NCBI GenBank assembly: GCA_032622095.1
Contig: CP136061.1
Coordinates: 252,041,582 to 252,105,581 of the forward strand
DNA length: 64,000 nt
From: Siphonodentalium dalli
Taxonomy: Eukaryota; Mollusca; Scaphopoda; Gadilida; Siphonodentaliidae
Reading direction: 5' to 3'
Shown here: positions 14,984 through 61,352 of the stretch, piece by piece
How the letters are laid out: the number at the start of each line of letters is the position of its first letter
Numbering within the stretch: position 1 is the first letter of the stretch
Notes under the pieces: generated by a model
Databases searched by the model: none
Told to the model about the DNA's origin: nothing
The model's input: only the letters and a program-made list of their open reading frames with translations
Made by a program: the position numbers and the translations under genes

Positions 14984-15070
14984 CTGGCCAGAGTGGAAAC
15001 AAATGATGACTGAAGCTATAAAAGGTTTAAACCCCAGCTCAGTCGGATGTCGATTTCGCACTCTTACCAT
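14984..15070 (+). promoter_or_regulatory. SECIS element D1-a
   Basis: SECIS elements in the 3' UTR direct UGA recoding to selenocysteine. Seen: quartet strands TGAT (15004-15007) and GGAT (15045-15048) able to form tandem G.A pairs; helix II GACTGAAGCT with AGCTCAGTC (one bulged A); an apical ATAAAA (15018-15023) followed by a GGTTT/AAACC mini-stem, as in form-II SECIS; lower helix CTGG..AGAGTG with CACTCT..ACCA. It lies 0.85 kb after the D1 stop. Confidence 0.85.
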
Positions 15071-15328
15071 AATGTTGAACTCTTAATGTTGAAAGTCTGT
15101 CACTGTACAACTGTATATTGCATCTACCTGAAAATTTTGGAGGCCTCTATACAACATTTCACCATATGCAAATATATACCTGAAGTTTCAAAACAGTTAT
15201 ATGGCTTTAACATATTTGTGTTATATATGTTCTTGCATGACTGTGTTATTGGTGTATATCGCAAAGCTGCCACACTTCTCGGGTTTTCAAAGATGTATAT
15301 AAAGTATAGTATTCCAGAAATCGACATA

Positions 15329-15351
15329 CTGGCCAGAGTGGAAACAAATGA
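15329..15351 (+). promoter_or_regulatory. Truncated SECIS, 5' half only
   Basis: CTGGCCAGAGTGGAAACAA and ATGA match the 5' half of the other SECIS copies. The sequence then diverges to atggtaactgtactc, with no A-rich loop or 3' strand. It occupies the place where D2 carries its split SECIS and is unlikely to function. Confidence 0.75.
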
Positions 15352-15548
15352 ATGGTAACTGTACTCTCCCCGGTTGCAGGAGAAATGCTGCAGAGATCAA
15401 ATGTTCCTTTAGTTGCACTTAATCGCTTGATGAATCTTATGCGCTCACTATGGCGAATGGCCACTATTTATCAGTTCATTCTTGCCTCACCTCTCGCTAT
15501 TTCATAGATATACATGTAATAGTATACAGTATTTCATAGATTGACATA

Positions 15549-15635
15549 CTGGCCAGAGTGGAAACAAATGATGACTGAAGCTATAAAAGGATTACACCTC
15601 AGCTCAGTCGGATGCTAGATTTGCACTCTTGCCAG
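15549..15635 (+). promoter_or_regulatory. SECIS element D1-b
   Basis: Same architecture as D1-a: TGAT (15569-15572) opposite GGAT (15610-15613), helix II GACTGAAGCT/AGCTCAGTC, and apical ATAAAA at 15583-15588. The lower helix is the best in the window: CTGGCCAGAGTG against CACTCTTGCCAG pairs at 11 of 12 positions. It lies 1.4 kb after the D1 stop. Confidence 0.85.
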
Positions 15636-15911
15636 AATGTATCGAGGAAGTGGTGACAAGGGGTATGCCTCCCACAGTTGGTCAACATATTCAATATTTT
15701 GGAACTGTCATGCCGTTAGTTATGGTTTGTTCGATTTTAAATGCAATGACCGTCAATTTGATATATGTAACTAACCAGATATCATTAGTACACATGCACC
15801 TTATTTTTTCGGCTATATTTATCTCCATGTGTATGTTTTATACATGTATACATCATGTACTTGATATAGTGTAAATGTCTGACACGCCTCGTGAAGCCTA
15901 TGGTGAATATT

Positions 15912-15917
15912 AATAAA
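15912..15917 (+). terminator. Poly(A) signal, D1 unit
   Basis: AATAAA in the context gaatattaataaattaatctg. The same block with AATAAA follows the last SECIS in the D2 and D4 units, and the shared 3' block diverges soon after. Confidence 0.6.
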
Positions 15918-15984
15918 TTAATCTGAATCTAAATCTGAGCATGAATTTGCGAACAGTAGACCATAACAGCGTGATCTGCACGAC

Positions 15985-16030
15985 CGGGGCCACTCGACAC
16001 ATGGACAACCCTACCCGAGACAATTAATGG
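15985..16030. repeat. GAC-AACCC-GACC simple repeat, short form
   Basis: A few degenerate units (acatggacaaccctacccgagacaa) follow the D1 poly(A) signal. The same motif is greatly expanded after D2 (23890-24140) and D4 (61655-62135). Confidence 0.6.
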
Positions 16031-16039
16031 CTAAGACAC

Positions 16040-17460
16040 TGCGCTTGTGTTGTCTTATGAAGCCAATCAACGAACCAACATTCGAGCATTTAACAACAGA
16101 CAATTGGGTGCGAGTTGTGCAAAATTCAAATTCAAATTAGTTTATTCTCATTCATCATCATGATATGATATATAGAGATGACAAATATACATGTAATACA
16201 TTATACATAAAATAGGTATGGCGTTAATACTAACAATTAAGTACATATTTTCTAACGTTTACATATCATGAATATGGTCATATAGGGAAGGTTCGTGCTG
16301 TCTAAGTTGCTAAAAAGGGGGTTGGAATGGGTTGTGCTGTGTTGGGAGCGGTGAACTCGTCAAGTAGACGTTCGTCTTATATAATCGCATAATTTATGTA
16401 GGACGCGCAAGAGAGTAGACGGGCGCGAAGCGCCCGGGATGGTCGAAAAGATCGAGTGATCTTCTCCTTCACCCCACGGTTTGTTGTTGTTGGAGATATT
16501 GTACACAGAAAATTGTCATGTCTGAACCCGGCAAAGGTTGAGTTGAATTGAATTGAATGTTGTGTGAGGGAGGGCCCACGAGCTTTAATATGGGGTATGA
16601 TGGTGGAGTCCCGAGTTGTCCCTTTAATGATTTTGTTGTTGCTGAGCGAGTCATTTGGTGCGCTGGAATGAAGAACGGGGCCCGTGTTGTAATGATAAAG
16701 TTTGTTAGTTGTTTAAAAGTATGCATATGTATAAACTCAAGCAAACGCAAGCAGGAAGACCAGGGACCAGACGGATGCGGTACGCGCAGAGCGAGAGCGA
16801 GACATAGGGAGAATTGCATGTAGATAGGGCCCGCAATTGCACTTAGAGTTTTGCGTAGTTGTCGTATGTTGTTGTATTTACCTCCCCCATATTGTACGGG
16901 CGTACGTGAATGCGTATTTTGACAATTTCATATAGTGTTAATTAAGATTTTTATTTATTCACTGAAATAAATTTGAATGACAATGAACAAGGCATGATAT
17001 ACTCTCTATATATATGTATGACTATTGTATTGCACTGAAAGAGATTTTAATTCCAATAGCATGTTTGAACACTGTTGTATTGAATGGCATGTGATGTTGA
17101 GCAGAAGAGAAGAAGGGCGCGAACACCCGAGATGATCGATGTGATATAGAGAGAGAGAGAGGTGAGGAGATTGGAGTTTGGCGAGTTACCCAGAGGTGTT
17201 GATGCATTTTTCTATCCCACCCTTCTTCCCCATGTCGTGCACGGGCGTAGGTGAAATCATATTTTTAACAATCATATACAGTGTTAATTCAGATTTATAT
17301 TCGCTGAAGTAATTTTGAACGATAATGAACAGGACATGATATACATCTATATATATATAAGTATTGTACAGTGAACATATTTTTTTGGTTTATATGATTT
17401 TTTTGGTTATTTTATTTTGGTAAAATGATGTATGTACAAATTGATAATTACAATGTGTTC
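16040..17460. other. No intact gene; possible LINE-related flank
   Basis: There is an imperfect direct repeat of about 150 bp (16870-17040 and 17215-17375; shared gtgttaatt..agattt, aatgaacaaggcatgatata). The phrase caaattcaaattagttta near 16130 would read on the minus strand as an A-rich tail and could be the 3' end of the minus-strand LINE, but this is not established. Short ORFs here have no recognisable domain. Confidence 0.35.
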
Positions 17461-18041
17461 TTGATGGGCCGTTCCTGGCCTCCCGAAGAAAGTCGCAGAG
17501 CAGCAAGCGGCCGAACATATGAGGGTATATGTCCGGCCTTAACTCGATGAGAGCTTAGATGACCACTTATGGGTCTGAAGTTTCCTTGCACCCCACCCCA
17601 AGCTTAGTGCTGGGTCGGTTTTTATGCCGGGTCCCGCTCGATAGGTGTTGTCGGATGAGTGGAATGTGTTAGACACGAGCGCTAGTTTCTGTAAATGTTA
17701 CAAGATATGCAGTTAGTTAGTTTGGTTTGGAGGAGATAATTATTCGATGGCTTATACTACGGTCACCAACGGGGTATCTACACCGCCCGAGGACATTCAT
17801 CAGCGCCCAAGGAACCATCTAGGGCCGGAGCCCGCTAACCTATGTTTTAATTTTGGTGTTAGTCAATTTGTAATAATGGCTATGTTTGTCAGCATTATGG
17901 TGAGATAGGCAAAGTTTGTTAGTTTTTTTTATAGGAGATAATTAATCAATGGCTTATACTACGGCCACGACATGCGTATCTATGCCGCCCGAGGACATTC
18001 ATCAGCGCCCAAGGAACCATCTAGGGCGTGAGCCCGCTAAC
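17461..18041 (-). repeat. LINE 3' UTR region with duplicated 110-bp segment
   Basis: On the minus strand this follows the LINE stop codon. Two copies of a roughly 110-bp segment are present, about 17740-17845 and 17935-18045. They share gcttatactacgg, cgcccgaggacattcatcag and ggaaccatctaggg. The GC-rich block 17461-17640 is single copy in the window. Confidence 0.65.
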
Positions 18042-18968
18042 CTAGGTTTTATGATTGGTGTTAGTAGTAAAATGTAGGACAGTCACATTGTTGGAGTTTA
18101 ATAGGAGAACAAAACTGTATGTACTAGGATTCTCAGTCAATGAAACTGGTATATTTCGTCTGCGTAAGGAACTCCAGTAATTACATTCCATTAAGTGATG
18201 ATATTCGTCACCTAATGAATTAGTCCTACATAAGTTACAATATCTTTTATTCTTGTCAATGTTAAGCCACGATCCTCTTTCTATTGGCAGGCGATGGTTT
18301 CTACAGCGATATCTCATTAAAGTAATCACATCGTTTCTTGTTAACTTACATAAGTAAGGTTCAGTACCAAAATTTATTTTGTAAATTCTATAGGTCGAAC
18401 ATTTACCAATTGAGTTCACTTTTAATTTCCAATCATAGATAAATTTTTTAGTTAAAGTTTGTTTGACTGATTCTTTAACATGTGCTGGTTCGAACTCTTC
18501 GGTGCCCTGTATAATCCAATAATAAGATAAACCCGTGATATTCATAATACCTTATATATGACTTATCCAGGGGTGACTCCATTCTTTTGAATAATTACTA
18601 AGTAAATAGTAGTATAGTGTTTGCGTTATCTTAGGTTTGTTCGAATTAATTAATTTTGCCCAGTAGTAACCCATTATTGTGTCTATTTCAATCTCCAAAG
18701 GAGTAACACCTGTTTCACCGTATACCATGACGTCTAGAGTACTATATTTAAGGTTAAAGATATACTTCAAATACGTTAATTGCACTTTTTCAAGTTCAAG
18801 CTTTTCATGATATCCCCAAATTTCGCAAGCGTACAAAAGAATTGGTTTAACAGTCTTTTCAAAGAGGTCTATTTGTAAATTGACAGGTATGTTCATTCCT
18901 TTTTACTTATATATAAGTGCATACATAGCTCGTCTGGCCTTAGCTATTAACTCCTGCAGAGACTCGAA
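18042..18968 (-). pseudogene. Decayed LINE reverse-transcriptase C-terminal region
   Basis: Reading on the minus strand from 18968 gives LQELIAKARRAMYALIYK, a TAA stop (18903-18905), then NIPVNLQIDLFEKTVKPILL with ACEIWG. This is the thumb/connection region typical of LINE ORF2 proteins. After a second in-frame TAA (18552-18554) the same frame continues with RCRNHRLPIERGSW and a CNLC...HHLMEC zinc knuckle near the C-terminus. The two premature stops and the missing polymerase and endonuclease domains show a dead, 5'-truncated copy. Its 5' end abuts segmental block S2 at about 18969. Confidence 0.88.
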
Positions 18969-19400
18969 TTATTGTCGGACGAAGCGGTTTCCACAAGAAC
19001 ATTTCGATAAATGGAGAATAATCCGGTGTTTCAATAATTTTCATTTAATAATACTAAAATGTTCAGACTTTGGACTACATAAATAGCTATAGAGAATAAA
19101 TTGTATCTTCCCATTACTAGCTCAGTGGTCAGTGCTGCACTTAAAGGGGTACTGTACACTAACTCTGGTCATGTATGGAACCTTCTCCTTTTATACTCAA
19201 CAACTGAATGAATTTGAGACATGGGTTATTGCAGAATACACTCATGTGCTATATGAAAAATGCAAACAACATGTTAATTATAATGACAATGAGTTTATTA
19301 CTTTCATTTAGGTCACCACATTTCTTGGCATGACGAAACAGTGTCCCCCAAGTTAAACTTTAGCAAAACATACCTAATTTCTTGATGTAGTCACTTAGGT
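18969..19400. repeat. Segmental duplication block S2 (upstream of D2)
   Basis: Second copy of block S1 (12400-12840), carrying small indels that break the ORFs of S1. Confidence 0.75.
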
Positions 19401-19549
19401 CTAAGACATACTCGGAAATTAAACTTTCCAACGATACCTCATCAAGTTGGCTGAAGAAATATTGGAAATATGGCTTTGCGAATATAGTGAGTCAGAAATA
19501 CCGAACCGCATATAATCGTGAATCATAATTATAGTCACTAATCGTCTAA

Positions 19550-19735
19550 ATAGGATAGCTCATCTTATTCGTGCCTTCAGAATTAAGAAGGGTGACGTTA
19601 GTCTTTATTTGTAGTTATTAACTCTACTAACTCGCGCTTCTCGCTCGGGAATAGAGTTAATAACTTCCAGTCAAGGCAAACGACATCCTTCTTAATTCTG
19701 AAGACACTCGTTGCGATGATCTATCCAATACTAAT
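19550..19735. repeat. Palindromic element R2 upstream of D2
   Basis: Copy of R1 with inverted arms cagaattaagaaggg and ccttcttaattctgaag around the same ctcgcgcttctcgctcgg centre. Confidence 0.75.
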
Positions 19736-19779
19736 CGTATAGACGTGACAACAGGAACGTCGTTCAGCCCAGCGAGTGG

Positions 19780-20275
19780 GAGTGGGGGTAAGTAAGCCGG
19801 TTGACGTGAACACGCATGGAACGATTAGGTGTGATAGTTGTGGGTAGAGAAAGTAAGCCGGTTGGCGTTAACACGCATGGAACGATTAGGTGTGATAGTT
19901 GTGGGTAGGAGAAAGTAAGTCGGTTGGCGTTAACACGCATGGAACGATTAGGTGTGATAGTTGCGGGTGTGAGAAAGTAAGTCGGTTGACGTGAACACGC
20001 ATGGAACGATTAGGTGTGATAGTTGCGGGTGGTAGTAAGTAAGCCGGTTGGCGTGAACACGTATGAACGATTATGTGTGATGGTTGCGGGTGGTAGTAAG
20101 TAAGCCGGTTGGCGTGAACACGTATGAACGATTATGTGTGATAGTTTCGGGTGGTAGTAAGTAAGCCGGTTGACGTGAACACGCATGGAACCATTATGTG
20201 TGATAGTTGCGGGTGGTAGTAAGTAAGCCGGTTGGCGTTAACACCCATTGAACGATTCTGTATGATAGTTGCGAT
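19780..20275. repeat. 61-bp minisatellite upstream of D2 (about 8 units)
   Basis: Units contain agtaagccggttg(a/g)cgt, aacacgcatggaacgatta and gtgtgatagttgcggg. Two interleaved subtypes occur, taacacgcatggaacg and gaacacgtatgaacg, which differ by one base in length. Confidence 0.9.
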
Positions 20276-20375
20276 GGATGTATGCGAATGTGCTCGTGGA
20301 CGAACTGGTATGCTGTGTCAGATTGTATGTATGTGCGTTTGTGGTATGTTGGCGTGGCTGTATATGTGGATGTGA

Positions 20376-20547
20376 AGTTTTTGATATTCTTCTAATTTAA
20401 ACACATCGCAAACGTGTCCCTGAAGGCTACATGAACTGGATTGGTTGCACCTTGAATTTTCGTACAATCGTATTGATGCATCGGTGCTCACACATCGCAG
20501 AAAACAAGCCATCCATTGTTACTAAAAATAAACCTTTTCGTTACAGA
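20376..20547 (+). promoter_or_regulatory. Conserved D2 leader/upstream region
   Basis: Conserved with D4 (59540-59698) and in pieces at D3: aatttaaacacatcgcaaac, cgtacaatcgtattgatg, cacatcgcag, catccattgttactaaa, ccttttcgttacag. The minisatellite stops at its left edge and the ATG at its right. It may hold the promoter, a leader exon and a splice acceptor (ttcgttacag), but no TATA box or start site was identified. Confidence 0.5.
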
Positions 20548-21315
20548 ATGGGGCTTCCAATGGTGGCTAATATGCTGCTCGTGTGTGTGGTACACTTCTT
20601 TACTCTCATCAACCGATTCCTCACGTACTTACCGTTTTATACAAGATTCGTCGAATATATAGTTCCATGGGTAGGGAAGAAACGCGGCTTTTCAAACAAG
20701 AAAACTGCTACACAGCTCTCTCTAATTAAAAGCACAAGAGAAAGCGATTCCAAAAAACAAGTTGCACTAATGTTGAAACGCTTGCGACAAATCTACGAAA
20801 CAGAAGCACAAGATGGAAAGAAGGCATTAAATTCCGTCCTGTTTTCTTTAGACGGAGTTACACAGATTAATTTGTTGGATCTTGTCAAGCATGGGCGACC
20901 TCTGGTGGTCAATTTTGGAAGTTGCAGCTGACCACCGTTCATGACGGATCTGCAGAATTTCGCTGAGCTCACGCACGAGTTCGCGAAGTACGTAGATTTC
21001 GTTTTCATCTACATATCGGAGGCACACCCAGTCGAAGGTTGGAATTTTGAAAACAATGAATATAAAATCAAAGACCATCGCAATCTCCAGGATCGAATCG
21101 AGGCCGCCAAGATGTTGAGTGCTCGAGTTGGTGATATATGTCCGATTTTCGTGGATAATTTTGATAATACAACCAGCCGATGGTACGGAGCTTTCCCGGA
21201 ACGTCTATACGTCATTCAAGATAGTGTCGTTGTTCTACAGGGAGGGATTGGTCCATTCCTGTACAGCGTCGATGTTGTTGGGGATTGGCTAAATAAAACA
21301 TTCACGAAGCAATAA
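20548..21315 (+). CDS. DIO: Iodothyronine-deiodinase-like selenoprotein D2 (Sec at TGA 20929-20931)
   Basis: The protein is 255 aa with Sec at residue 128, collinear with D1 and D4. The N-terminal hydrophobic segment is ANMLLVCVVHFFTLI. The catalytic motif is NFGSCS-U-PPFM, followed by YISEAHPVEGW, HRNLQDRIEAAKML, FPERLYVIQ and GGIGPFLYS. Relative to D1, most changes are conservative and the frame is intact throughout, which argues for function or recent duplication. One intact SECIS (22702-22788) lies 1.39 kb downstream. The second is split by a transposon. A 519-bp TTAA element also interrupts the 3' region. Expression depends on whether D2-a alone suffices and whether the longer UTR is transcribed. 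Confidence 0.92.
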
Positions 21316-21534
21316 GGGAACCATATTAGAGAGAGTTCGCATACAACGGCACAATGGGGTATTGCTCTAGCATGACATTGTAACAACAATAACAGTCATA
21401 ACAGAAATTCAGTCAAAGAGTGCTGTAAGCAAACACAAGAACCACATAACCACATAACTTAGACGATGAAACAATGAGATATATATAATTATCTTCCGAT
21501 TCCGTATCCTGGATGGAAACATAATAGAGATTAA

Positions 21535-22053: not shown

Positions 22054-22186
22054 TTAATATGTTCCTATATGATCCACACATTAACGCTTTGTCTGATTAA
22101 GAAATAAATACACTGCGCAACGGCGTGCGTGTATAGTAGAATTTGGCCCGATAGACATAGACGCTGATTGTAGCACGAGTCGAGGC

Positions 22187-22478
22187 AGAGTTTTACAATC
22201 AGTTTATGTGGGCGGAGTTATACAATCAGATTATGTGGGCGGAGTTTTACATTCAGTTTATGTGGGCGGAATTTTACTATCAGTTAATGTGGGAAGAGTT
22301 TCACAATCAGTTTATGTGGGCGGAGTTTTGCAACCAGTTTAATGTGGGCGCAGTTTTTCAATCAGTTTATGTGGGCAGAGTTATACAATGAGATTATGTG
22401 GGCGGAGCTTTACAATCAGTTTATGTCGGCGGAGTTTTACAATCTTATGTGGGCTGAATTTTACAATCAGTTTATGTG
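22187..22478. repeat. 28-bp tandem repeat in D2 3' region
   Basis: Counterpart of 14465-14768, with the same unit order and the same variant units (gttaatgtgggaagagtttc, tttaatgtgggcgcagttt). The array therefore predates the D1/D2 duplication. Confidence 0.9.
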
Positions 22479-22701
22479 GTCAAAATTCGGCTATACACGC
22501 CGATACGCATTGAATGTATTTGTTTTGTAATTCGAATGTATGTTTTCGTCGAAATTTTAGTATTACAATTGTACATGTAACTATTCTACCGCCAATATAT
22601 CCAGAGGAGACAAATGTATATTATATATCACAATTATATCACAAATCTGTCACACCTTTCGGTTTTAAAATATGTTCTATATTATTTCAGAAATCAACAT
22701 A

Positions 22702-22788
22702 CTGGCCAGAATGGAAACAAATGATGACTGAAGCTATAAAAGGTTTAAACCCCAGCTCAGTCGGATGTCGATTTCGCACTCTTACCAG
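22702..22788 (+). promoter_or_regulatory. SECIS element D2-a
   Basis: TGAT (22722-22725) faces GGAT (22763-22766). Helix II is GACTGAAGCT/AGCTCAGTC, the apical run ATAAAA is at 22736-22741, and the GGTTT/AAACC mini-stem is present. The lower helix is CTGG..AGAATG against CACTCT..ACCAG, with one pair weakened relative to D1. This is the only unbroken SECIS of the D2 unit. Confidence 0.85.
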
Positions 22789-23060
22789 AATGTTGAACTC
22801 TTAATGTTGAAAGTCTGTCACTGTACATTGCATCTACCTGAACATTTTGGAGGTCTCTATACAACATTTCACCATATGCTATACAGTCTTTTCTGCAAAT
22901 ATTTACCTGAAGTTGCAAAAAATATATATGGCTTTAACATAGATTGTATTATATAATTATTTTCTTGCGTGACTGTGTTATTGGTGTATATCGCAAAGCT
23001 GCCACACTTCTCTGGTGTTCAAAGGTGTATATAAAATATAGTATTCCAGAAATCGACACA

Positions 23061-23543
23061 CTAGCCAGAGTGGAAACAAATGATGACTTAACCCTTTACC
23101 CAACAGAACGACCCTGTGCCAATGCATTCTCTTATATATGCGAGTCGACCATAGGTCGCCTCGCATATATAAGAGAATGCATTGGCTTAACACATTAAAA
23201 ATTATAAAATTGTTAAAGAATGTAAGAATAAATCGTAAAAAGTGTTAAAAAAAGATTTTTTTTAGGCCAATGCATTCTCTTATATATGCGAGGCGACCTA
23301 TGGTCGACTCGCATATATAAGAGAATGCATTGGCACAGGGCATAACTGTAACTATCACAATGTGGTCAAGGAGCCGGTTCCAATGATATCCATATGTGTA
23401 TGGTTCTATTGAGACAGACCGAAGATATTTTAGGCTGTTGAAGCTTTATTTGGCCGGTTTTGGCCGGTTTGTTGGGTAAAGGGTTAAGCCATAAAAGGTT
23501 TAAACTTCAGCTGAGTCGGATATCAGATTTGCACTCTTGCCAG
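23061..23543 (+). promoter_or_regulatory. SECIS element D2-b, split by MITE P2
   Basis: The 5' strand (23061-23087: lower helix, ATGAT and gac) and the 3' strand (23488-23543: ataaaa, mini-stem, cagctgagtc, GGAT, CACTCTTGCCAG) match an ordinary SECIS. P2 and its TTAA duplication interrupt them inside helix II. The helix cannot form in the usual way with 392 bp inserted. Confidence 0.85.
23092..23483. mobile_element. TTAA-type (piggyBac-like) MITE P2
   Basis: This 392-bp near-identical copy of P1 is flanked by TTAA at 23088-23091 and 23484-23487, with the same CCCTTTACCCAACA ends and two internal hairpins. The pre-insertion sequence is known from the sister SECIS copies: gatgactgaagctataaaa became gatgac-TTAA-insert-TTAA-gccataaaa. 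Confidence 0.9.
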
Positions 23544-23823
23544 AATGTCGAAATCGAGGAAGTGGTGAGAGGGGGAATGCCTCCCAAAGTTGGTCAAAAT
23601 ATTCAATATTTGGAACTGTCATGCCGTTAGTTATAGATTGTGTGATTTTAAATGCAATGGCCGTCAATTTGATACATGTAACTAACCAGATATCATTCAT
23701 GCACATCTACCTTATTCTTCTGCTATATTTATCTGCATGTGTATGTTTTATACTTGTATACACATCATGAAATTAATATAATGTAAATGTCTGACATGCC
23801 TCGTGAAGCCTGTTGTGAATATT

Positions 23824-23829
23824 AATAAA
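23824..23829 (+). terminator. Poly(A) signal, D2 unit
   Basis: AATAAA in gaatattaataaaataatctg, matching the D1 and D4 units. Confidence 0.6.
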
Positions 23830-23889
23830 ATAATCTGAATCTACATCTGATCATGAAGTCGCGAACGACAGACCACAAAGGCGTGATCT

Positions 23890-27500: not shown

Positions 27501-27779
27501 TAACCTCGCAACAACCACATGTCCTAGTAAAATAATCACATTATTGGTCAATGTCATGCCTTAAACATGATTATTGGTCAATATCAGACTGTAACAGAGG
27601 CTGACATAGTTCTGATAGTTCAATTTTATAGTTAAAATTTGGGGTAAACTATGTGGATTCCAAGAGTAAAATATTTACCTACATATTCAACCAATTTGCT
27701 TATGGAAATCACCGATGTTGGCGGATTGAAACGCTAGAAGCGGAATATCTCTAACGAATGCATGGTGAGCCAACTGCAA

Positions 27780-28945
27780 CAAAATGTATATATCGTCGGT
27801 GGGCTTATAAATGTATATATCTTCGGTGGGCTTATAACTGTATATATCTTCGGTTGGCTTATAAATGTATATATCGTCGGTGGGCTTATAAATGTATATA
27901 TCTTCGGTGGGCTTATAAATGTATATATCTTCGGTGGGCTTATAAATGTATATATCGTCGGTGGGCTGATAAATGTATCTATCTTCGGTGGGCTTATAAA
28001 TGTATATATCGTCGGTGGGCTTATAAATGTATATATATTCGGTGGGCTTATAAATGTATATATCGTCGGTGGGCTTATAAATGTATATATCGTCGGTGGG
28101 CTTATAAATGTATATATCGTCGGTGGGCTTATAAATGTATATATCGTCGGTGGGCTTATAAATGTATCTATCTTCGGTGGGCTTATAAATGTATATGTCG
28201 TCGGTGGGCTTATAAATGTATATGTCTTCGGTGGGCTTATAATGTATATATCTTCGGTGGGCTTATAAATGTATATATCGTCGGTGGGCTTATAAATGTA
28301 TTTATCGTCGGTGGGCTTATAAATGTATATATCTTCGGTGGGCTTATAAATGTATTTATCGTCGGTGGGCTTATAAATGTATATATCGTCGGTGGGCTTA
28401 TAAATGTATCTATCGTCGGTGGGCTTATAAATGTATCTATCGTCGGTGGGCTTATAAATGTATATATCGTCGGTGGGCTTATAAATGTATATATCGTCGG
28501 TGGGCTTATAAATGTATATATCGTCGGTGGGCTTATAAATGTATATATCGTCGGTGGGCTTATAAATGTATATATCGTCGGTGGGCTTATAATTGTATAT
28601 ATCTTCGGTGGGCTTATAAATGTATATATCGTCGGTGGGCTTATAAATGTATATATCGTCGGTGGGCTTATAAATGTATATATCGTCGATGGGCTTATAA
28701 ATGTATATATCTTCGCTGGGCTTATAAATGTATATATCGTCGATGGGCTTATAAATGTATATATCGTCGGTGGGCTTATAAATGTATATATCGTCGGTGG
28801 GCTTATAAATGTATCTATCGTCGGTGGGCTTATAAATGTATATATCGTCGGGGGGCTTATAAATGTATATATCGTCGGTGGGCTTATAAATGTATATATC
28901 GTCGGTGGGCTTATAAATGTATATATCGTCGGTGGGCTTATAAAA
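27780..28945. repeat. 27-bp minisatellite (about 43 units)
   Basis: Units of 27 bp read aatgtatatatcgtcggtgg then gcttata, with cgt/ctt and ata/cta variants. Because 27 is a multiple of three and the unit lacks stops in several frames, it yields long ORFs on both strands (9-aa repeats NVYIVGGLI on + and KPTDDIYIY on -). One 26-bp unit near 28240 shifts the frame on both strands. No promoter, splice structure or non-repeat domain supports a protein. Confidence 0.95.
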
Positions 28946-29054
28946 CGGCATACCTGCCAATTTGGCGCGAAACTTTTTATTGCATTTTCGGAATCTACGG
29001 ATTTAATTACATTGATTCGTCAGATAACTTGTCAATATTTCAAATATAGATACC

Positions 29055-29345
29055 ATATATGTGACCCGCCATATCAAATCCAGTCGTAAGTCGGGATTTT
29101 TTTACCCTGTGCCAATGCATTCTCTTATGCATTGGCCTAACAATTTTTTATCATTTTTTTTTAAATAAATGTTTCTTGCAATTTTTAGGACATAAAATAA
29201 AAAAAACATCCATTACCCTACAGGGAGCCCCACACATATATAGAAGCATATAGAAGAGTGTCGTCTGCTCACGTTTGTCTGGGGCTCTGTATGGGTGAAA
29301 TTATAAAATTGTTAAAGAATACAAGAAAAACATATTATAATTGTA
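29055..29345. mobile_element. Hairpin-end MITE Q1 (right end lost)
   Basis: The left end is tatatgtgacccgccatatc followed by aatccagtcgtaagtcggg. A collapsed hairpin (ccaatgcattctcttatgcattggc) comes next, then a core shared with Q2 (ggacataaaataaaaaa, agggagccccacacatata, gtgtcgtctgctca). The hairpin sequence is the same as in the P MITEs, although the rest of the element differs. Confidence 0.75.
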
Positions 29346-38568: not shown

Positions 38569-38799
38569 AAAGTGGTGGCTTGATATTATTATGTCACAAT
38601 TGATTCATTCTGACACGAGGGCTGTTAAAAGCCTGCGCCTGTTCGAATTAATTGAGGGCGTACCAATAATAATTATATTGGCATGTTGTGGTCCGCCTGG
38701 TAACTGGGTGTCGCAGGCCGCAGGCCCCTCTGACGCTGAATAAAGGCCCACGAAAGGTGCCCGTTTCAGCTAGTATGATATATCTTAGTTGTTTTCTGT

Positions 38800-38852
38800 C
38801 AAAGTTGTGACGATTTTGATACTCTCCTCCCAATTTAAACATATCGCAAAAA
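38800..38852 (+). promoter_or_regulatory. Distal part of the D3 leader
   Basis: gattttgatactctcctccc and aatttaaacatatcgcaaa match the leader upstream of D2 (20380) and D4 (59545). The leader then breaks into the 30-bp minisatellite and resumes at 39515. Confidence 0.5.
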
Positions 38853-39508
38853 TGCCACATTCGACTGATCTGGTTATAAACATGCCACATTCGACTGATC
38901 TGGTTATAAACATGCCACATTCGACTGATCTGGTTATAAACATGCCACATTCGACTGATCTGGTTATAAACATGCCACATTCGACTGATCTGGTTATAAA
39001 CATGCCACATTCGACTGATCTGGTTATAAACATGCCACATTCGACTGATCTGGTTATAAACATGCCACATTCGACTGATCTGGTTATAAACATGCCACAT
39101 TCGACTGATCTGGTTATAAACATGCCACATTCGACTGATCTGGTTATAAACATGCCACATTCGACTGATCTGGTTATAAACATGCCACATTCGACTGATC
39201 TGGTTATAAACATGCCACATTCGACTGATCTGGTTATAAACATGCCACATTCGACTGATCTGGTTATAAACATGCCACATTCGACTGATCTGGTTATAAA
39301 CATGCCACATTCGACTGATCTGGTTATAAACATGCCACATTCGACTGATCTGGTTATAAACATGCCATATTCGACTGATCTGGTTATAAACATGCCACAT
39401 TCGACTGATCTGGTTATAAACATGCCACATTCGACTGATCTGGCTATAAACATGCCACATTCGACTGATCTGGTTATAAACATGCCACATTCGACTGATC
39501 TGGTTATA
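38852..39508. repeat. 30-bp minisatellite (22 units) inside the D3 leader
   Basis: Twenty-two nearly perfect units (atgccacattcgactgatct then ggttataaac); only three single-base variants were noticed (39368, 39444, 39509). The array lies between leader segments that are adjacent in D2 and D4. The unit resembles the leader phrase ggccacatggactggatt of D4, so it probably amplified from it. The ORFs of about 250-280 aa across it are by-products of a period divisible by three. Confidence 0.95.
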
Positions 39509-39543
39509 TACACCTTAATTTCCGTACAATCGTATTGATGCAT

Positions 39544-39783
39544 CTTCATCCGCAATTTTGTCCGAGACCTTCCGATCGACCACGTGTTTCTGGGCCACGT
39601 ATTATTACACAACTCGAGAAATAACAAACTTCAAAAATCGATATCTGATCACTCTGAGCTTTGATGGGTTGGTTCCCCGACTCGAACCAAATATGTTTTA
39701 ACCCCGACGCCAAAGAAATAGTCATTTAGGAGCGTCTGATCGGATTGAGTACATTTAATCATATAGTAATCGTTTATATGCAT
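39544..39783. mobile_element. Partial TTAA-element insertion in the D3 leader
   Basis: cttcatccgcaattttgtcc through gagtacatttaatc matches the 3' portion of the element at 40712-41145. It interrupts the leader phrase cgtattgatgcat / cacatcgcag found at D2 and D4, with atgcat repeated on both sides. The left terminal repeat is missing. Confidence 0.7.
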
Positions 39784-39804
39784 GGGCGTTCTCACGTCGC
39801 AGCA

Positions 39805-39904
39805 AACAAGACATCCATTCTTACTAAAATAAACCGTATTCGTTACAGAATGGGGCTTCTAAAAGACATCCATTCTTACTATAATAACACGTTTTCATTA
39901 CAGA
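39805..39904 (+). repeat. Duplicated acceptor/start module before D3
   Basis: The segment catccattcttacta.. through ..ttacagaatggggcttc occurs twice in tandem, at about 39810-39864 and 39868-39918. The first copy has its own ATG (39850) but reads MGLLKDIHSYYNNTFSLQNG, out of the deiodinase frame. The second copy starts D3. If ttacag is used as a splice acceptor, two alternatives exist. Confidence 0.75.
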
Positions 39905-40699
39905 ATGGGGCTTCGAATGGCGGCTGATATGCTGCTCATGTGTGCCGTGTTCTTCGTCATGCTCGTCAACCGATTCCTCTCGTTGTATCTACCGTTTTAC
40001 ATAAGATTCATCGAATATTCAGTGCTATGGGTAGGGAAAAAACGCAGCTTGCCAAACACGACAACTGCTGCAAACATATCTGCAATAAAAAGCTTAGGAG
40101 AAAACGATGCCAAACAACTAGTTGCTGAACTATGGAAATTCTTACAAAACATCTACGCAACAGAAGCAAAGGAGAAAAATAAAGCATTAAATTCCGTCCT
40201 GTATTCTTTAGACGGAGTTACACAGATTAATTTGTTGGATCTTGTTAAGCATAAGCGACCTCTGGTGGTGAATTTCGGTAGTTGTAGCTGACTGCCGTTC
40301 ATGGAGGAACTTGAGAAGTTCGCTGAGCTCACGCGAGAGTTCGCGAGGTTCGCAGATTTCGTTTTCATCTACATAACGGAGGCGCATGCAGTCGATGGTT
40401 GGAAAATTGCACATAATGAATATAACATCAAAGAACACCGCAATCTCCAGGATCGACTCGAGGCCGCTAAGATGTTGAGTGATCGAGTTGGTGATATTTG
40501 TCCAATTTTCTTAGATAATTTTGACAATACAACCGGTCGCATGTACGGAGCTTTCCCGGAACGTCTATATGTCATTCAGGATGGTGTTCTTGTTCTACAA
40601 GGAGGGTTGGGTCCATTCATGTATAGTGTTGACACTGTAAGGACTTGGCTAAACAAAACATTCACGAAACATCGACGGAACGGAACGCTACACTCTTAA
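39905..40699 (+). CDS. DIO: Iodothyronine-deiodinase-like selenoprotein D3 (Sec at TGA 40289-40291)
   Basis: The protein is 264 aa with Sec at residue 129 and is the most divergent of the four. It retains a hydrophobic anchor (MLLMCAVFFVMLVNRFL), the catalytic NFGSCS-U-LPFM motif with Leu instead of the first Pro found in the other copies, YITEAHAVDGW with the conserved His, HRNLQDRLEAAKML, FPERLYVIQ and GGLGPFMYS. It has one extra residue near the membrane segment (SLYLP) and a 9-residue C-terminal extension after FTKH. The nearest recognisable SECIS is 4.1 kb downstream at 44833, so whether this gene can still insert Sec is open. Without a SECIS it would stop at residue 128. Confidence 0.88.
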
Positions 40700-44100: not shown

Positions 44101-44725
44101 ACTTACAACTGTCATTTATATTAACAATAGGCACCTTTCTCATACCATTTATCTGTAACATGATTAACCAAAATTATGTAAATATACATTCAGTTAGTTG
44201 TATACAATCATGTAAATATACAGTCAGTTAGTTGTATACAGTAAACCACGTGTCCGTAATGTTACGGAACAATGAGATGGCAGATATTTATCCAGTCATT
44301 TCTTCCGTAAAATTTACAGCAACCCTATTAACATTGTACTAAACTGCATAGGGCACAAAGACGTATTGCTCTAACGTGTGTTACAAGATTAACAGTTTCT
44401 ATACTAAATACTCATTATCGAGCAGTTATCCTTTAATATTTTTTTGTATACCAGAAAATAAAAAATAAAATCAATATTAATTTATAGAATCGTTTCCGGC
44501 CAGTGATCTTTGATTCATATTTATTATTGTGTAACCACCAAACTATATAAAACTTGTTATAGGAAGAGATAGACCATATTTATACCCAGGAAACCATATA
44601 AAACTTGTTCTAGGGAGAGATATACTATATTTATACCCAGGAAACTATATAAAACTTATTATAGGAAGAGATAGACTAGCTTTATACCCAGGAAACTATA
44701 TAAAAACTTGTTATAGGATTGTAAC
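41150..44725. other. No gene seen; several short tandem duplications
   Basis: A 99-bp tandem duplication lies at 41822-42022 (gatcccca..tggcgtttat, cgtgtcctg-like phrases). Repeats of ataggattcagtactatt with gggtggggt occur at 43840-44040. A gtcagttagttgtataca duplication is at 44190-44240. A period of about 59 bp is seen at 44540-44720 (actatataaaacttgttata, ggaagagatagac). Part of 44450-44540 matches the 21535-22053 MITE. The ORF at 41490-41855 lacks family features. Confidence 0.5.
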
Positions 44726-44727
44726 AA

Positions 44728-44970
44728 TTCTACCGCCAATATATCCAGAGCAAAAATATATATCACAAAGCTGCCACACTTCTCCGGTATTCACATATAG
44801 ATATGCACTATAGTATTTCAGAAATCAACATACTGGCCAGAGTGGAAACAAATGATGACTGAAGTTATAAAAGGTTAAAACCTCAGCTCAGTCGGATATC
44901 GATTTTGCACTCTTACCAGAATGTTAAACTCTGAATGTTGAAAGTCTGTCACTGTATATTGCATCTAGTT
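44728..44970. repeat. Detached deiodinase 3'-UTR fragment
   Basis: Contains taccgccaatatatccagag and tctgtcactgtatattgcat, matching the flanks of SECIS a of D1/D2, and cacaaagctgccacacttct, matching the left flank of SECIS b. The block looks like a recombinant of the two SECIS neighbourhoods. No deiodinase coding sequence is attached. Confidence 0.75.
44833..44919 (+). promoter_or_regulatory. Orphan SECIS element
   Basis: TGAT (44853-44856) faces GGAT (44894-44897). Helix II is GACTGAAGTT with AGCTCAGTC (a G.U wobble replaces one pair), apical ATAAAA is at 44867-44872, and the lower helix is CTGGCC-AGAGTG with CACTCT-TACCAG. The fold seems intact. The nearest upstream Sec gene is D3, 4.1 kb away with a transposon between, so it is either the D3 SECIS in a very long or spliced UTR or a relic. 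Confidence 0.8.
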
Positions 44971-55624: not shown

Positions 55625-57372
55625 TAGTCCAGTGCATTTATGAGAAAAAAGTGCCAAACCTCAAACTAATTGCAACACAATGTTTCTTAGCAGGATTATG
55701 TCTATTAACCAATTATAAACAGCATACTGAAAATAAAAAAGGATCAAGAAAGGCGAAATTGTAAATTTTGTGAAATAAATTAGTTAAATTTTGGTCATTT
55801 TTAAGACTCAATTTATAGCTTTTCAAGGATGTTTATAAAAACTTCATTTCGTATGTCCTTCCATTTATATACTCCATTTTGTTAAGTACACAATCATGAT
55901 TACAGAACAGAAAACATTTTCCAGATACGTTGAGTATGTTTCGAGTTATGTGCCTCCAAATTTGGGAGTTTGTCTAATTTCAGAGCCTCAATTTCCAAGA
56001 ATTAGCTAAAATCCATATTTTATTGTCTAGTATCTTAAAAACTAGAGAAAAATGAAGGGGATATCTTGCTGTTCTATTAGTTTCCTCACTATATTGTGCA
56101 CAACAAATTATTAGTTCATGCATCTATGATCGAGAAGACAAACATATTCTTAAACAAAATGTGTGTCCCATTGTATGGACTTTGCCAAATTTGCCCTGTG
56201 ACACAGAACTGGTGTGATGAAATACCATATTTGAGGTCATACAACTCAATAAATTGATATCCATATGCCCTGTATTTCTCATATCCACTTAAGTGTACTA
56301 GGTTAAATACACTGTGCTGGAGTTGTTAAACACATGTGTGCCAAGATCATCTTATGGCCCTATGAATTTATGCATCAAGGTCCATGTTTTCTGAGATTTT
56401 GTCAATATGGTTCCCCCTACCCCATTTTTCAGATATTCAAATTTAGCGTCAGTTTCCAGAAAAATGAGTGAAATGCAGTGACATTCATTAACATATCCAA
56501 TATAAGGCTATTATTTCAACACTAAGGTGTTTTAGGGGGAAAGTTCAAATGATTTTACACATTAAACGCACATTGTTTTTTCTATTTATACAAAAAAACG
56601 TTTAAAAATGGACAAAAACGCCAAAAATGGCATTTTTTATAAAAGTCAATTCTAAGGATTCATAGGGTCATAATTTGGTTTCTACATCATGATTTTGGAA
56701 ATTCCTTCACAGTGTGTTTAACCATGTATACTTAAGTGATTATGAGACATACAGGGGAAATGAATATCTATTTATTGAGTTGTATGATCTCGAATATGCT
56801 ATTTAATCACGCCCGTTCTGGACCACAGGCAAATTTGGCTAATGGTGGAACACACATTTTGTTTAAGAATATTTTTGTCCTCTCAATCATAGATGCAAAA
56901 AGAATTCATGTTGTGCACAACCTAGAGAGGAAATGACCAAAATAACAAGAAATCCCTTTATTTTTCTTTAGTTTTTAAAATGCAAAACCATAAAAAATGG
57001 ATTTAACTGATTTTGAGAAATTGGGGCTCTGAAATTAGATAAACTCCAAATTTTGGAGGCGCATAACTCAAAAAATACTCAACGTATCTGGGAAAGGTTT
57101 TCTGTTCTGTAATAAGGTTTGTGTACTCTACAAAAGGATATATAAATCGAAGGCCTTGTGAAATAAAAACATTTATAAACATTTTTGAAAAGCCATAAAT
57201 TGAATATTTTACCAAATATTGACAAATTTATTTCACAAAATTCATCAATTTCGCCTTTCTTGATTCTTTTGGATTTTTAGTGTGTTGTTTGTGATGGGTT
57301 CAAGTACTTATTCCCACTGAGAAACTTTGTGTTACAATTAGTTTGAGGTGAAACAATAAATGCACTGGACTA
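55625..57372. mobile_element. Large foldback element (1.75 kb)
   Basis: Ends TAGTCCAGTGCATTTAT and ATAAATGCACTGGACTA are inverted. The two arms, about 55625-56330 and 56680-57372, are diverged inverted copies over most of their length. Matching pairs include aaggcgaaattg / atttcgcctttcttga, acgttgagtatgt / actcaacgtatct, gtgcctccaaatttgg / ccaaattttggaggcg and tgtgcacaacaaat / tgttgtgcacaac. No ORF carries a recognisable domain. It sits inside the flank of a palindromic MITE, whose uninterrupted counterpart is near 1340-1365. Confidence 0.75.
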
Positions 57373-57374
57373 TA

Positions 57375-57520
57375 AGGAATGACTTGCAGATCGATTTGGG
57401 GTCATTGGTTTTGACCGACAGAGTAATTAAACAAAGTCCGTATTAATCCCTTCGGGATTCACACGTTTTATTTATTTACTCTGTCGGTCAAAACCAATGA
57501 CCCCAATCGATCAGCAATTA
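57375..57520. repeat. Palindromic MITE, copy 2
   Basis: Counterpart of 1363-1510. Arms ggggtcattggttttgaccg and cggtcaaaaccaatgacccc are perfect inverted copies around cccttcgggattcacac. The outer right arm is lost. Confidence 0.8.
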
Positions 57521-57639
57521 AATAATCGTTCTCGTGATCAGCTTCAGGTTCTCGTGGTTTGCAAGTTCAACACCGAAGTTTTCCAAATGGGTTTTTACTT
57601 CCGAGAAGAATCGCATATAATCTTGAATCATAATGATAG

Positions 57640-57840
57640 TCATGAATAGTCTAAATTGGATAGATTATCTTATTCGTGCCTTCAGAATTAAGAAGGGTGA
57701 CGTTAGTCCTGATTGGTAGTTATGAACTCTACTCACTCGCGCTTCTCGCTCGGGAATGGAGTTAATAACTTCCAGTCAAGGCAAACGCCATCCTCCTTAA
57801 TTATGAAGACACTCGTTCGGATGATCTATCCAATACTAAT
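57640..57840. repeat. Palindromic element R3 upstream of D4
   Basis: Third copy of R1/R2: attggatagat, cagaattaagaaggg, ctcgcgcttctcgctcgg, gatgatctatccaat. Upstream of it, 57605-57640 also matches D1 and D2 (gcatataatc..gaatcataat). Confidence 0.75.
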
Positions 57841-57884
57841 CGTATAGACGTGACAACAGGAACGTCGTTCATCCGAGCGAGTGC

Positions 57885-59430
57885 ATGGGAGTGGGGGTAA
57901 GTAAGCCGGTAGGCGTGAACACGAATGGAACGATTATGTGTGATAGTTGCGGGTAGAGAAAGTAAGCCGGTTGGCGTTAACACGCATGGAACGATTAGGT
58001 GTGATAGTTGCGGGTGGGAGAAAGTAAGTCGGTTGGCGTTAACACGCATGGAACGATTAGGTGTGATAGCTGCGGGTGGTAGAAAGTAAGTCGGTTGGCG
58101 TTAACACGCATGGAACGATTAGGTGTGATAGTTGCGGGTGGGAGAAAGTAAGTCGGTTGACGTGAACACGCATGGAACGATTAGGTGTGATAGTTGCGGG
58201 TGGGAGAAAGTAAGTCGGTTGACGTGAACACGCATGGAACGATTAGGTGTGATAGTTGCGGGTGGGAGAAAGTAAGTCGGTTGGCATTAACACGCATGGA
58301 ACGATTAGGTGTGATAGTTGTGGATGGGAGTAAGTAAGCCGGTTGGCGTGAACACGTATGAACGATTATGTGTGATGGTTGTGGATGGGAGAAAGTAAGC
58401 CGGTTGGCGTTAACACGCATGGAACGATTAGGTGTGATAGTTGCGGGTGTGAGAAAGTAAGTCGGTTGACGTGAACACGCATGGAACGATTAGGTGTGAT
58501 AGTTGTGGATGGGAGTAAGTAAGCCGGTTGGCGTGAACACGTATGAACGATTATGTGTGATGGTTGCGGGTGGGAGTAAGTAAGCCGGTTGGCGTGAACA
58601 CGTATGAACGATTATGTGTGATGGTTGCGGGTGGGAGTAAGTAAGCCGGTTGGCGTGAACACGTATGAACGATTATGTGTGATGGTTGCGGGTGGGAGTA
58701 AGTAAGCCGGTTGGCGTGAACACGTATGAACGATTATGTGTGATGGTTGCGGGTGGGAGTAAGTAAGCCGGTTGGCGTGAACACGTATGAACGATTAGGT
58801 GTGATAGCTGCGGGTGGTAGAAAGTAAGTCGGTTGGCGTTAACACGCATGGAACGATTAGGTGTGATAGTTGCGGGTGGGAGAAAGTAAGTCGGTTGACG
58901 TGAACACGCATGGAACGATTAGGTGTGATAGTTGCGGGTGGGAGAAAGTAAGTCGGTTGGCATTAACACGCATGGAACGATTAGGTGTGATAGTTGCGGG
59001 TGGGAGAAAGTAAGTCGGTTGGCGTTAACACGCATGGAACGATTAGGTGTGATAGTTGCGGGTGTGAGAAAGTAAGTCGGTTGACGTGAACACGCATGGA
59101 ACGATTAGGTGTGATAGTTGTGGATGGGAGTAAGTAAGCCGGTTGGCGTGAACACGTATGAACGATTATGTGTGATGGTTGCGGATGGGAGTAAGTAAGC
59201 CGGTTGGCGTGAACACGTATGAACGATTATGTGTGATGGTTGCGGGTGGGAGTAAGTAAGCCGGTTGGCGTGAACACGTATGAACGATTATGTGTGATGG
59301 TTGCGGGTGGGAGTAAGTAAGCCGATTGGCGTGAACACGTATGAACGATTATGTGTGATGGTTGCGGGTGGGAGTAAGTAAGCCGGTTGGCGTGAACACG
59401 CATGGAACGATTATGTACGAGAGTTGCTGG
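57885..59430. repeat. 61/62-bp minisatellite upstream of D4 (about 25 units)
   Basis: Same unit as upstream of D1 and D2. Homogeneous blocks of the cgtatgaacg subtype (58530-58800, 59140-59400) alternate with blocks of the cgcatggaacg subtype, indicating local block duplications. Minus-strand ORFs of 79-146 aa across it are repeat artefacts. Confidence 0.95.
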
Positions 59431-59529
59431 TGGATGTGTGCGAATGTGCTTGTGGATGAACTGGTATGCTGTGTCAGACTGTATGTATGTGCGTTTGTGG
59501 TATGGTGGTTGGCTGTACTTGTGGACGTG

Positions 59530-59698
59530 AAGTTTATTATATTCTTCTTCCAATTTAAACACATCGCAAACGTGTCGTTGAAGGCCACATGGACTGGATT
59601 CCTTGAATGTCCGTACAATCGTATTGATGCATCGGTGCTCACACATCGCAGAATACAAGCCATCCATTGTTTCTAAAAATAAACCTTTTCGTTACAGA
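59530..59698 (+). promoter_or_regulatory. Conserved D4 leader/upstream region
   Basis: Nearly the same as the D2 leader: aatttaaacacatcgcaaac, ggccacatggactgg, gtacaatcgtattgatgcat, cacacatcgcag, ccttttcgttacag. This is the most complete version against which the D1 deletion and D3 rearrangements can be judged. Confidence 0.5.
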
Positions 59699-60466
59699 AT
59701 GGGGCTTCAAATGGTGGCTAATATGCTGATCGTATGTGTGGGAGACTTCTTAATTCACATCAGCCGATTCCTCACGTACCTACCGTTTTATACAAGATTC
59801 ATCGAATATATAGTTCCATGGTTAGGGGAGAAACGCGGCCTTTCCGACAAGAAAACTGCTGCACAGGTATCTATAATTAAAATCGCAAGAGAAGGCGGTT
59901 CCTTACAACAAGTTGGATCAATGCTGACACGCTTGCGAAACATCTACGAAACAGAAGCGCAAGAGAGAAAGAAGGCAATCAGTTCCGTCCTGTTTTCTTT
60001 AGACGGAATTACACAGATTAATTTGTTGGATCTTGTCAAGCATGGGCGACCTCTGGTGGTCAATTTTGGTAGTTGCAGCTGACCACCGTTCATGGCGGAT
60101 CTGCAGAATTTCGCTGAGCTCACGCGAGAGTTCGCGAAGTACGCAGATTTCGTTTTCATCTACATATCGGAGGCGCACGCAGTCGAAGGTTGGAATTTTG
60201 AAAACAATGAATATAAGATCAAAGAACATCGCAATCTCCAGGATCGACTCGAGGCCGCCAAGATGTTGAAAGCTCGAGTTGGTGATAGCTGTCCGATTTT
60301 CGTGGATAATTTTGACAATACAACCAGCCGATGGTACGGAGCTTTCCCGGAACGTATATACGTCATCCAAGATGGCGTCGTTGTTCTACAGGGAGGGATT
60401 GGTCCATTCCTGTACAGCGTCGATGTTGTTGGGGATTGGCTAAATAAAACATTCACGAAGCAATAA
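59699..60466 (+). CDS. DIO: Iodothyronine-deiodinase-like selenoprotein D4 (Sec at TGA 60080-60082)
   Basis: 255 aa, Sec at residue 128. N-terminal anchor ANMLIVCVGDFLIHI, then FLTYLPFYTRFIEYIVPWLG shared with D1/D2. Catalytic NFGSCS-U-PPFM, YISEAHAVEGW, HRNLQDRLEAAKML, FPERIYVIQ, GGIGPFLYS. In several positions (AHAVEGW, DRLEAAK, IQDGV) it agrees with D3 rather than with D1/D2, placing it between them. It has the richest SECIS set (three) and the shortest distance from stop to first SECIS (0.28 kb), so it is the best candidate for an active member. The frame is open from at least 59603, but the ATG at 59699 matches the other copies. Confidence 0.93.
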
Positions 60467-60743
60467 TGGAACCATATTAGAGAGAGTTCGCATACAACGA
60501 CATGAGGTATTGCTCTAGCATGACATTGTAACAACAATAAATAACAGTCATAACAGAAATTCAGTCAAAGGGCGCTGTAAGCAAACACAATTCGAATGTA
60601 TGTTTTCGTCGAAATGTTAGTATTACAATTGTAATTATTTTAACTCCAATATATCCAGAGAAAAATGTATATTATATATATCACAAATCTGTCACACCTT
60701 TCGGTTTTAAAATATGTACTATATTATTTCAGAAATGGACATA

Positions 60744-60830
60744 CTGACCAGAGTGGAAACAAATGATGACTGAAGCTATACAAGGTTTGAACCTCAGCTC
60801 AGTCGGATGTCAAACTTGCACTCTTACCAG
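60744..60830 (+). promoter_or_regulatory. SECIS element D4-a
   Basis: TGAT (60764-60767) faces GGAT (60805-60808). Helix II is GACTGAAGCT/AGCTCAGTC. The apical loop is ATACAA, so the A-run is interrupted by C but two A's remain before GGTTT. The lower helix is CTGACC-AGAGTG with CACTCT-TACCAG. Confidence 0.8.
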
Positions 60831-60923
60831 AATGTTGAACTCTTAATCTTGAAAGTATAATATGATATAGTATTTCAGAAAATTGTGTTTTCAACATATA
60901 TATATATTTCAGATATTGACATA

Positions 60924-61009
60924 CTGGCCAGAGTGGAAACAAATGATGGCTGAAACTATAAAAGTTTTAACCTGAGCTCAGTCGGATGTCGATTTTGCAC
61001 TCTTGCTAC
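60924..61009 (+). promoter_or_regulatory. SECIS element D4-b (weakened)
   Basis: TGAT (60944-60947) faces GGAT (60984-60987). Helix II GGCTGAAACT against AGCTCAGTC has an extra mismatch and a wobble. Apical ATAAAA is intact. The lower helix 3' strand is CACTCTTGCTAC, losing pairs at its base. Probably weaker than its neighbours. Confidence 0.7.
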
Positions 61010-61266
61010 AACATGATTCGTGGCAAGCAAGAAACAACATATTCTTCTTGTTTATAATCACAAACAAAAGTAGAATTAATTATATGGCTGTCATTTGGCC
61101 GGCTTGTCTCACTGAGGGCGTGTCATTGTTAACAAACAGGACAGATAATAACGAAATCGTATTTCACTGTAGATTCTAAGAGATACATACGATGATCCAC
61201 GTTTCGGTAATTTTCCGTTATTTTACAGGCAAACATATAATAAATAGTATCTCAGAAATCGACATA

Positions 61267-61352
61267 CTGGCCAGAGTGAAAACAAATGATGACTGAAGCT
61301 ATAAAGGTTTACACCTCAGCTCAGTCGGATGTTAGATTTGCACTCTTGCCAG
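61267..61352 (+). promoter_or_regulatory. SECIS element D4-c
   Basis: TGAT (61287-61290) faces GGAT (61327-61330). Helix II is GACTGAAGCT/AGCTCAGTC, apical ATAAA, and the lower helix CTGGCCAGAGTG with CACTCTTGCCAG is as good as in D1-b. Confidence 0.85.

Follow-up and report, generated by a model that had tools for sequence, protein, structure and literature searches.

Two strong selenocysteine insertion sequence (SECIS) elements were reported downstream of Bf.DI_b, a deiodinase of Branchiostoma floridae that has one selenocysteine (Sec) codon and belongs to a gene cluster, and the authors proposed non-reciprocal recombination during duplication (PMC3473315). Two SECIS are also described for Nv.Gpx_a, a glutathione peroxidase (GPx) of Nematostella (PMC3473315), and two predicted elements, both of form II, for the single Sec codon of SelW1 from Ciona intestinalis (PMC2874816). 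Human Sep15 has two potential SECIS with the upstream one nonfunctional (PMC2874816), and in SELENOP, which has 10 Sec codons in human and mouse, two SECIS share one 3' untranslated region (UTR), with distinct effects inferred from mutant mice (PMC5133445). Among molluscs, McDx and McDy of Mytilus coruscus are Sec deiodinases with the SECIS core UGAN/KGAW (PMC8481496), and in reporter work annelid SBP2L allowed Sec insertion from SECIS including that of Capitella SelT, of form 2 (PMC3328465). Here we present a repeated SECIS-like hairpin from a 64,000-nt stretch of the genome of the scaphopod Siphonodentalium dalli (GCA_032622095.1), hereafter the window, which covers positions 252041582-252105581 of contig CP136061.1 (C1) in a 2.23-Gb genome of nine contigs and carries four clustered deiodinase genes, D1 to D4.

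By description, Bf.DI_b resembles this locus as a clustered single-Sec deiodinase with two SECIS; it is, however, one gene in a cluster of three, whereas here the copy number differs over several paralogues and distinct losses can be traced. SelW1 and Nv.Gpx_a are alike in having two predicted SECIS per gene and differ in belonging to other protein families, each as a single case. Selenoprotein P shares the layout of two SECIS in a single 3' UTR, but there it accompanies 10 Sec codons and here near-identical copies follow one. The UGAU/GGAU core of the present elements fits the core of McDx and McDy, which are described with one SECIS per gene. An earlier note on this DNA, made from the letters alone, had called several SECIS behind one UGA unusual and named selenoprotein P as the known case; the first statement agrees with the literature, while the Branchiostoma deiodinase, the Nematostella GPx and the Ciona SelW1 show that selenoprotein P is not the lone precedent. 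No description of three SECIS on a single-Sec gene was found in the accessible parts of the literature searched, which does not prove that none exists. To the cases found, the locus adds a copy number that differs across close paralogues with visible, distinct losses, and it is richer than those described. Our preferred reading, to which we assign a probability of about 0.7, is that the hairpins are true SECIS of type II, duplicated and redundant, that belong to Sec deiodinases in a young tandem cluster, and that their spare copies are decaying gene by gene.

Deiodinase genes and the repeated hairpin

All four genes lie on the forward strand, each as one open reading frame with a single in-frame TGA in an SCSU motif: D1 at 13362-14129 (UGA-Sec codon at 13743, stop codon TAA at 14127-14129), D2 at 20548-21315 (UGA-Sec at 20929), D3 at 39905-40699 (UGA-Sec at 40289, stop codon at 40697-40699) and D4 at 59699-60466 (UGA-Sec at 60080). 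By their domain (PF00837, T4_deiodinase; E values from 4.0e-50 to 4.7e-53) and the in-frame UGA, the predicted products are iodothyronine deiodinases, which would deiodinate thyroid-hormone-like substrates. A genome search with PF00837 gave 11 places above the cut-off, each with a TGA inside; ten fall within 251.74-252.26 Mb of C1, and the eleventh, a divergent copy, is on C7. Readthrough of the UGA is supported by coding constraint beyond it. The ratio of nonsynonymous to synonymous substitution rates (dN/dS) 3' of the UGA was 0.27-0.60 in 20 of the 21 pairs formed by seven genes, the exception being D1-D2 with 2.45, a value based on 1 synonymous change, and dN was lower 3' than 5' of the UGA in 21 of 21; the seven are the C1 places other than three broken copies, of which two lie in region L003 and one in L006, and the C7 gene does not enter these pairs. 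With 53 candidates scored, a search for tRNA-Sec gave 14 matches above the cut-off among the 52 listed in the genome. Nine matches with identical scores form a 15-kb tandem array at C3:91435809-91450537, and 38 weaker tRNA-Sec-like matches, many about 1.7 kb apart, lie at C8:163268352-163411082.

Behind these genes the hairpin occurs in seven near-identical forward-strand copies (mean column identity 88%), at the places where the earlier note had seen it. It is almost certainly a type II SECIS, and would as such direct Sec insertion. Another seven, found in L002, L005 and L006, bring the alignment to 14 copies. All 14, including L6_4 with its replaced 5' half, have the non-Watson-Crick quartet AUGAU/GGAU. 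In the general anatomy this quartet stands between helix I, formed by AGAGUG/CACUCU and prolonged by a basal stem, and helix II (GACUGA(A)GCU/AGCUCAGUC). An unpaired AA, beyond which a ministem is formed, lies 12 nt past AUGAN in 13 of the 14; the usual spacing in type II SECIS is about 10-13 nt, and the 14 nt of the remaining copy, D4 SECIS a, fall outside it. Many copies are preceded by TATTTCAG. A duplicated splice acceptor was considered as a reading of it and set aside; on visual inspection, TTCAGA could base-pair with a TCTGAA located at the outer foot in several of the a-type copies. The distance from the UGA to the SECIS ranges from 683 to 4563 nt across the paralogues.

Compared with dinucleotide shuffles of its own sequence, each window copy is more stably folded than the average (z between -2.03 and -4.30), and 0 to 6 of 200 shuffles fold as well. 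In 12 of the 14 copies the pairing probability is 0.80-1.00 for helix I, 0.91-0.94 for helix II and 0.53-0.94 for the ministem, and in D4 copy c and L6_4 it is about 0 for both helices; among 280 mononucleotide-shuffled rows the highest mean probability of helices I and II was 0.18. The lowest minimum free energy of the 14, -46.9 kcal/mol, belongs to D4 SECIS b.

The covariance search, by which the earlier note would have had the fold stand or fall, gave a divided answer. RF00031 (SECIS_1) was the top one of 4227 Rfam families in five of five short stretches, on the correct strand (E of the best match per stretch 0.03-0.27), and matched six of the seven full-length window copies at 17.0-22.5 bits, all below the gathering score of 35; a scan of the full window gave no match at E<=1. 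Genome-wide, with 150 of 40523 candidates scored, the family matched nowhere at E<=1, a null result that is uninformative because the positive control was likewise without a match; the model appears to be insensitive to these elements. Complementary changes that keep the fold had also been proposed. TTACCAG/TTGCCAG turns a C.A into a C-G and GAAGCT/GAAGTT a C-G into a U.G, each by a change on one side. Covariation does not rise above that of shuffles: over the 13 distinct copies 2 pairs have both of their sides changed, against an average of 1.0 in shuffles, of which 121 in 500 reach this count, and the covariation score was reached by 99 of 500 shuffles, figures that are uninformative because the copies are too alike.

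Arrangement, conservation and probable decay of the copies

D1 is followed by two complete elements, SECIS a (14966-15088; quartet at 15003, 1260 nt past the UGA) and SECIS b (15531-15651; quartet at 15568, 1825 nt past the UGA), and by the 5' half of a further copy (15317-15351; blastn 94% over 35 nt) that is unable to fold as a SECIS. SECIS a of D2 (22684-22806) folds with one A.C mismatch in helix I. SECIS b of D2 is divided into a 5' part (23049-23091), cut inside helix II, and a 3' part (23486-23555) by the insertion of a TTAA-flanked element (23088-23487) with the inverted ends CCCTTTACCCAAC and GTTGGGTAAAGGG. The earlier counts of two intact copies plus a half after D1, and of one intact plus one split after D2, are thereby upheld. 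A 401-bp element with the same inverted ends lies at 1512-1912 of the window; we take these TTAA-flanked elements of about 400 bp to be reminiscent of short piggyBac-type elements.

The three copies that had been counted after D4 are present, but they are not three working SECIS. SECIS a (60726-60848) keeps the fold and has its first AA 14 nt past AUGAN, a spacing that, judged by the usual range, may disable it; RF00031 does not match it at E<=10. Copy c (60906-61027; RF00031 17.0 bits) has a mismatch in helix II and a broken basal stem, and its SECIS fold lies 11.5 kcal/mol above its best fold, with a SECIS-helix probability of 0.00. SECIS b (61249-61370; 1206 nt past the UGA) is complete and the only D4 copy with every feature. 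The copy at 44815-44937, complete and with its quartet 4563 nt past the UGA of D3, had been taken for an orphan (44833); it is best assigned to D3, because it aligns with the D1 SECIS-a block (44720-44967; 276 columns, 78%) and lies 4.1 kb past the D3 stop on the same strand. Its label a is based on the downstream side, the upstream flank being nearer to that of the D1 half-copy (88% over 97). All four window genes retain at least one copy that folds as a SECIS.

D1, D2 and D4 have in common the block that surrounds a and the block that surrounds b and extends to a homologous AATAAA, so that a and b probably already lay together in a single 3' UTR in the ancestor of the three. This AATAAA, a predicted poly(A) signal, follows SECIS b on the forward strand at 15912-15917 (D1), 23824-23829 (D2) and 61609-61614 (D4), and is the only post-stop AATAAA aligned across the three genes. 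The main alignments end about 50 nt past it for D1-D4 and D2-D4 and about 105 nt past it for D1-D2, with a few short pieces beyond. This layout suggests that one 3' UTR spans all copies, which would then be transcribed together. A tandem repeat with shift steps near 27 nt occupies part of the interval between stop codon and SECIS a in D1 (14467-14769) and D2 (22184-22487); this part of their predicted 3' UTRs is without counterpart in the D1-D4 alignment.

In the preferred reading, unequal recombination in the 3' region would have duplicated a SECIS-bearing segment, and the ancestor of D1, D2 and D4 would have carried a and b, if not more copies, in a single 3' UTR that ended at the common poly(A) signal. 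A single intact SECIS would be enough to recode the single UGA and the extra copies would be redundant; their loss would have taken different forms, D2 b being interrupted, D4 a altered in AA spacing and D4 c deprived of its fold, with D1 keeping both. The redundancy suggested in the earlier note accords with the foldable copy kept by every window gene and with the damage to different copies in D2 and D4; the dosage control suggested beside it finds no support here.

In the D1-D4 pair, 3 of 86 sites of SECIS b are different, compared with 49 of 356 flanking sites (Fisher p=0.005) or, when only the downstream flank is counted, 42 of 326 (p=0.011). For D2 b, which is interrupted and whose two parts were handled separately, the difference is at the flank rate both from D1 b (9 of 83 sites vs 46 of 371, p=0.85) and from D4 b (8 of 82 vs 39 of 352, p=0.85). 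D1 b and D4 b cluster in the tree of SECIS copies (94/90), a tree that leaves most of its structure open (none of its 10 inner branches is starred and 9 are open). Against D3, SECIS a is conserved above its flanks (p=0.022 and 0.017). These comparisons support, without proving, the use of SECIS b in D1 and D4.

The same conservation of b could be claimed for arrays kept by selection, in which the distal b would be the main element and the others would raise or tune Sec insertion or, through alternative poly(A) sites, allow isoforms. The two complete copies of D1 and the two-copy layout common to D1, D2 and D4 would fit such a role, and human SELENOP has a poly(A) site between its SECIS, with 10-25% of mRNAs lacking SECIS 2 (PMC5133445). 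At 61239, just 5' of D4 b, an AATAAA could likewise yield a transcript without b, but it has no AATAAA or ATTAAA counterpart beside b in D1 or D2. Since moreover D2 lost b, a and c of D4 are damaged, D3, L002 and L005 are single-copy and the D1-D4 comparison shows no excess conservation of SECIS a over its flanks, we regard selection for the arrays as improbable.

Similarly doubtful is the explanation that only the stop-proximal SECIS is transcribed and that distal copies are remnants of deleted neighbour genes past the transcript end. It draws on L006, where a pair of copies, in one of which the 5' half has been replaced, lies 4.5 kb further on in a region for which the PF00837 search lists no deiodinase, and on other AATAAA motifs before some copies, one of them (14388 in D1, 22103 in D2) common to D1 and D2. 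The sole post-stop AATAAA aligned across D1, D2 and D4 nevertheless falls past b. Of the two copies, b is also the one better conserved from D1 to D4, and no D4 copy is more canonical.

Related copies and SECIS candidates elsewhere in the genome

A genome-wide DNA search with the element gave 17 matches, a lower bound as the search skips very common words, all on the forward strand at C1:251745468-252254107, the span of the deiodinase cluster. Several tandem copies in a repeat-rich window might recall a dispersed mobile or satellite repeat that merely resembles a SECIS, but confinement to the deiodinase cluster on the gene strand within 2.23 Gb is unlike a mobile repeat, and with the complete SECIS anatomy makes this highly improbable.

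A model of the 14 copies gave 29 rows over the window and L001-L006. It recovered all 14 together with 3 partial copies; a further 11 rows were matches to these hairpins on the reverse strand, and the last was a weak match in L001 (E 1.1). L002 and L005 have one SECIS copy each, that of L005 with its basal stem severed by an insertion of about 550 bp. L006 (C1:252208500-252217500) holds a frame-broken deiodinase followed by five copies, four of which are foldable. Three stand 516-522 nt apart, and about 4.5 kb further come two more with matching spacing, one of them being L6_4 with its replaced 5' half.

For other candidates a generic SECIS scanner was used. It is loose: the first version (total energy <= -20) lists 23 places in 119 kb on both strands, 12 on copies, with D4 a in a shifted register, and 11 elsewhere, and it misses D4 c and L6_4. 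Five GPx 3' regions served as a control: three of them (L012, L013 and L014) yielded a strong canonical hairpin on the sense strand, with an antisense place outscoring the sense one in L014 (-30.8 vs -27.3), and L010 and L011 yielded nothing strong. L003, with two broken genes, contains no related SECIS copy, and the best candidate of the scanner there (+2003, -27.0) is unlike the copies; we consider it unlikely to be a SECIS. The divergent C7 deiodinase (L001, L008 and L007; C7:118045000-118074000, minus strand) is 43% identical to D4 over 163 aa, and in the 28 kb downstream of it the scanner gave no convincing SECIS, the best reaching only -21.4. In the deiodinase of L004 (C1:252239800-252249500) and L009, the part past the UGA still looks constrained.

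In L013 (C6:198775300-198780800) a GPx 3' region is tandemly duplicated (293-1351 and 2210-3277; 93% over 1.07 kb), and the duplication holds a SECIS-like hairpin twice, at 927 and 2849, 1.9 kb apart. This GPx is a possible second multi-SECIS gene in the same genome, which would fit a general tendency; if arrays were under selection, it may repeat that pattern. Apart from the hairpins, the window has long tandem-repeat tracts at 27734-29089 and 38648-39858 that are open in several frames on both strands, with KPTDDIYIY-like and HSTDLVINMP-like translations; they are probably minisatellites.

Weight of the evidence and meaning for Sec recoding

Several observations weigh against the preferred reading. 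The RF00031 scores do not reach the cut-off of the curated model. D2 SECIS a, the sole uninterrupted copy of D2, bears the helix I mismatch. The AATAAA common to D1 and D2 at 14388 and 22103, with identical surroundings, is upstream of SECIS a and, if used, would give an mRNA without any SECIS. For SECIS a, D1 and D4 show 9 differences in 87 sites, compared with 13 in 185 for the flanks (p=0.35); as a is no better conserved than its flanks in this pair, it gives no support for simultaneous constraint on two copies. The six conservation comparisons moreover involve few sites, and they would be distorted by any gene conversion among the copies. Four foldable SECIS stand behind the broken gene of L006, so that an intact hairpin is no proof of use. 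Finally, the gene of L004 is intact with its UGA and has no related SECIS in 8.8 kb and a further 2.2 kb downstream; a candidate at +7582 of the GUGA/CC type has an energy of -30.1, as good as the real copies, and we consider it, too, unlikely to be a SECIS.

Single-Sec genes with several SECIS have seldom been described, and in this cluster the set of retained copies varies from one close paralogue to the next; in some sister pairs an intact copy stands beside one that is interrupted or misfolded. For annotators this is a warning that not every hairpin counts as a working SECIS. The intact and damaged sister pairs would also amount to an experiment of nature on whether a single SECIS suffices, on the importance of features such as the AA spacing and helix I, and on how recoding signals are gained and lost.

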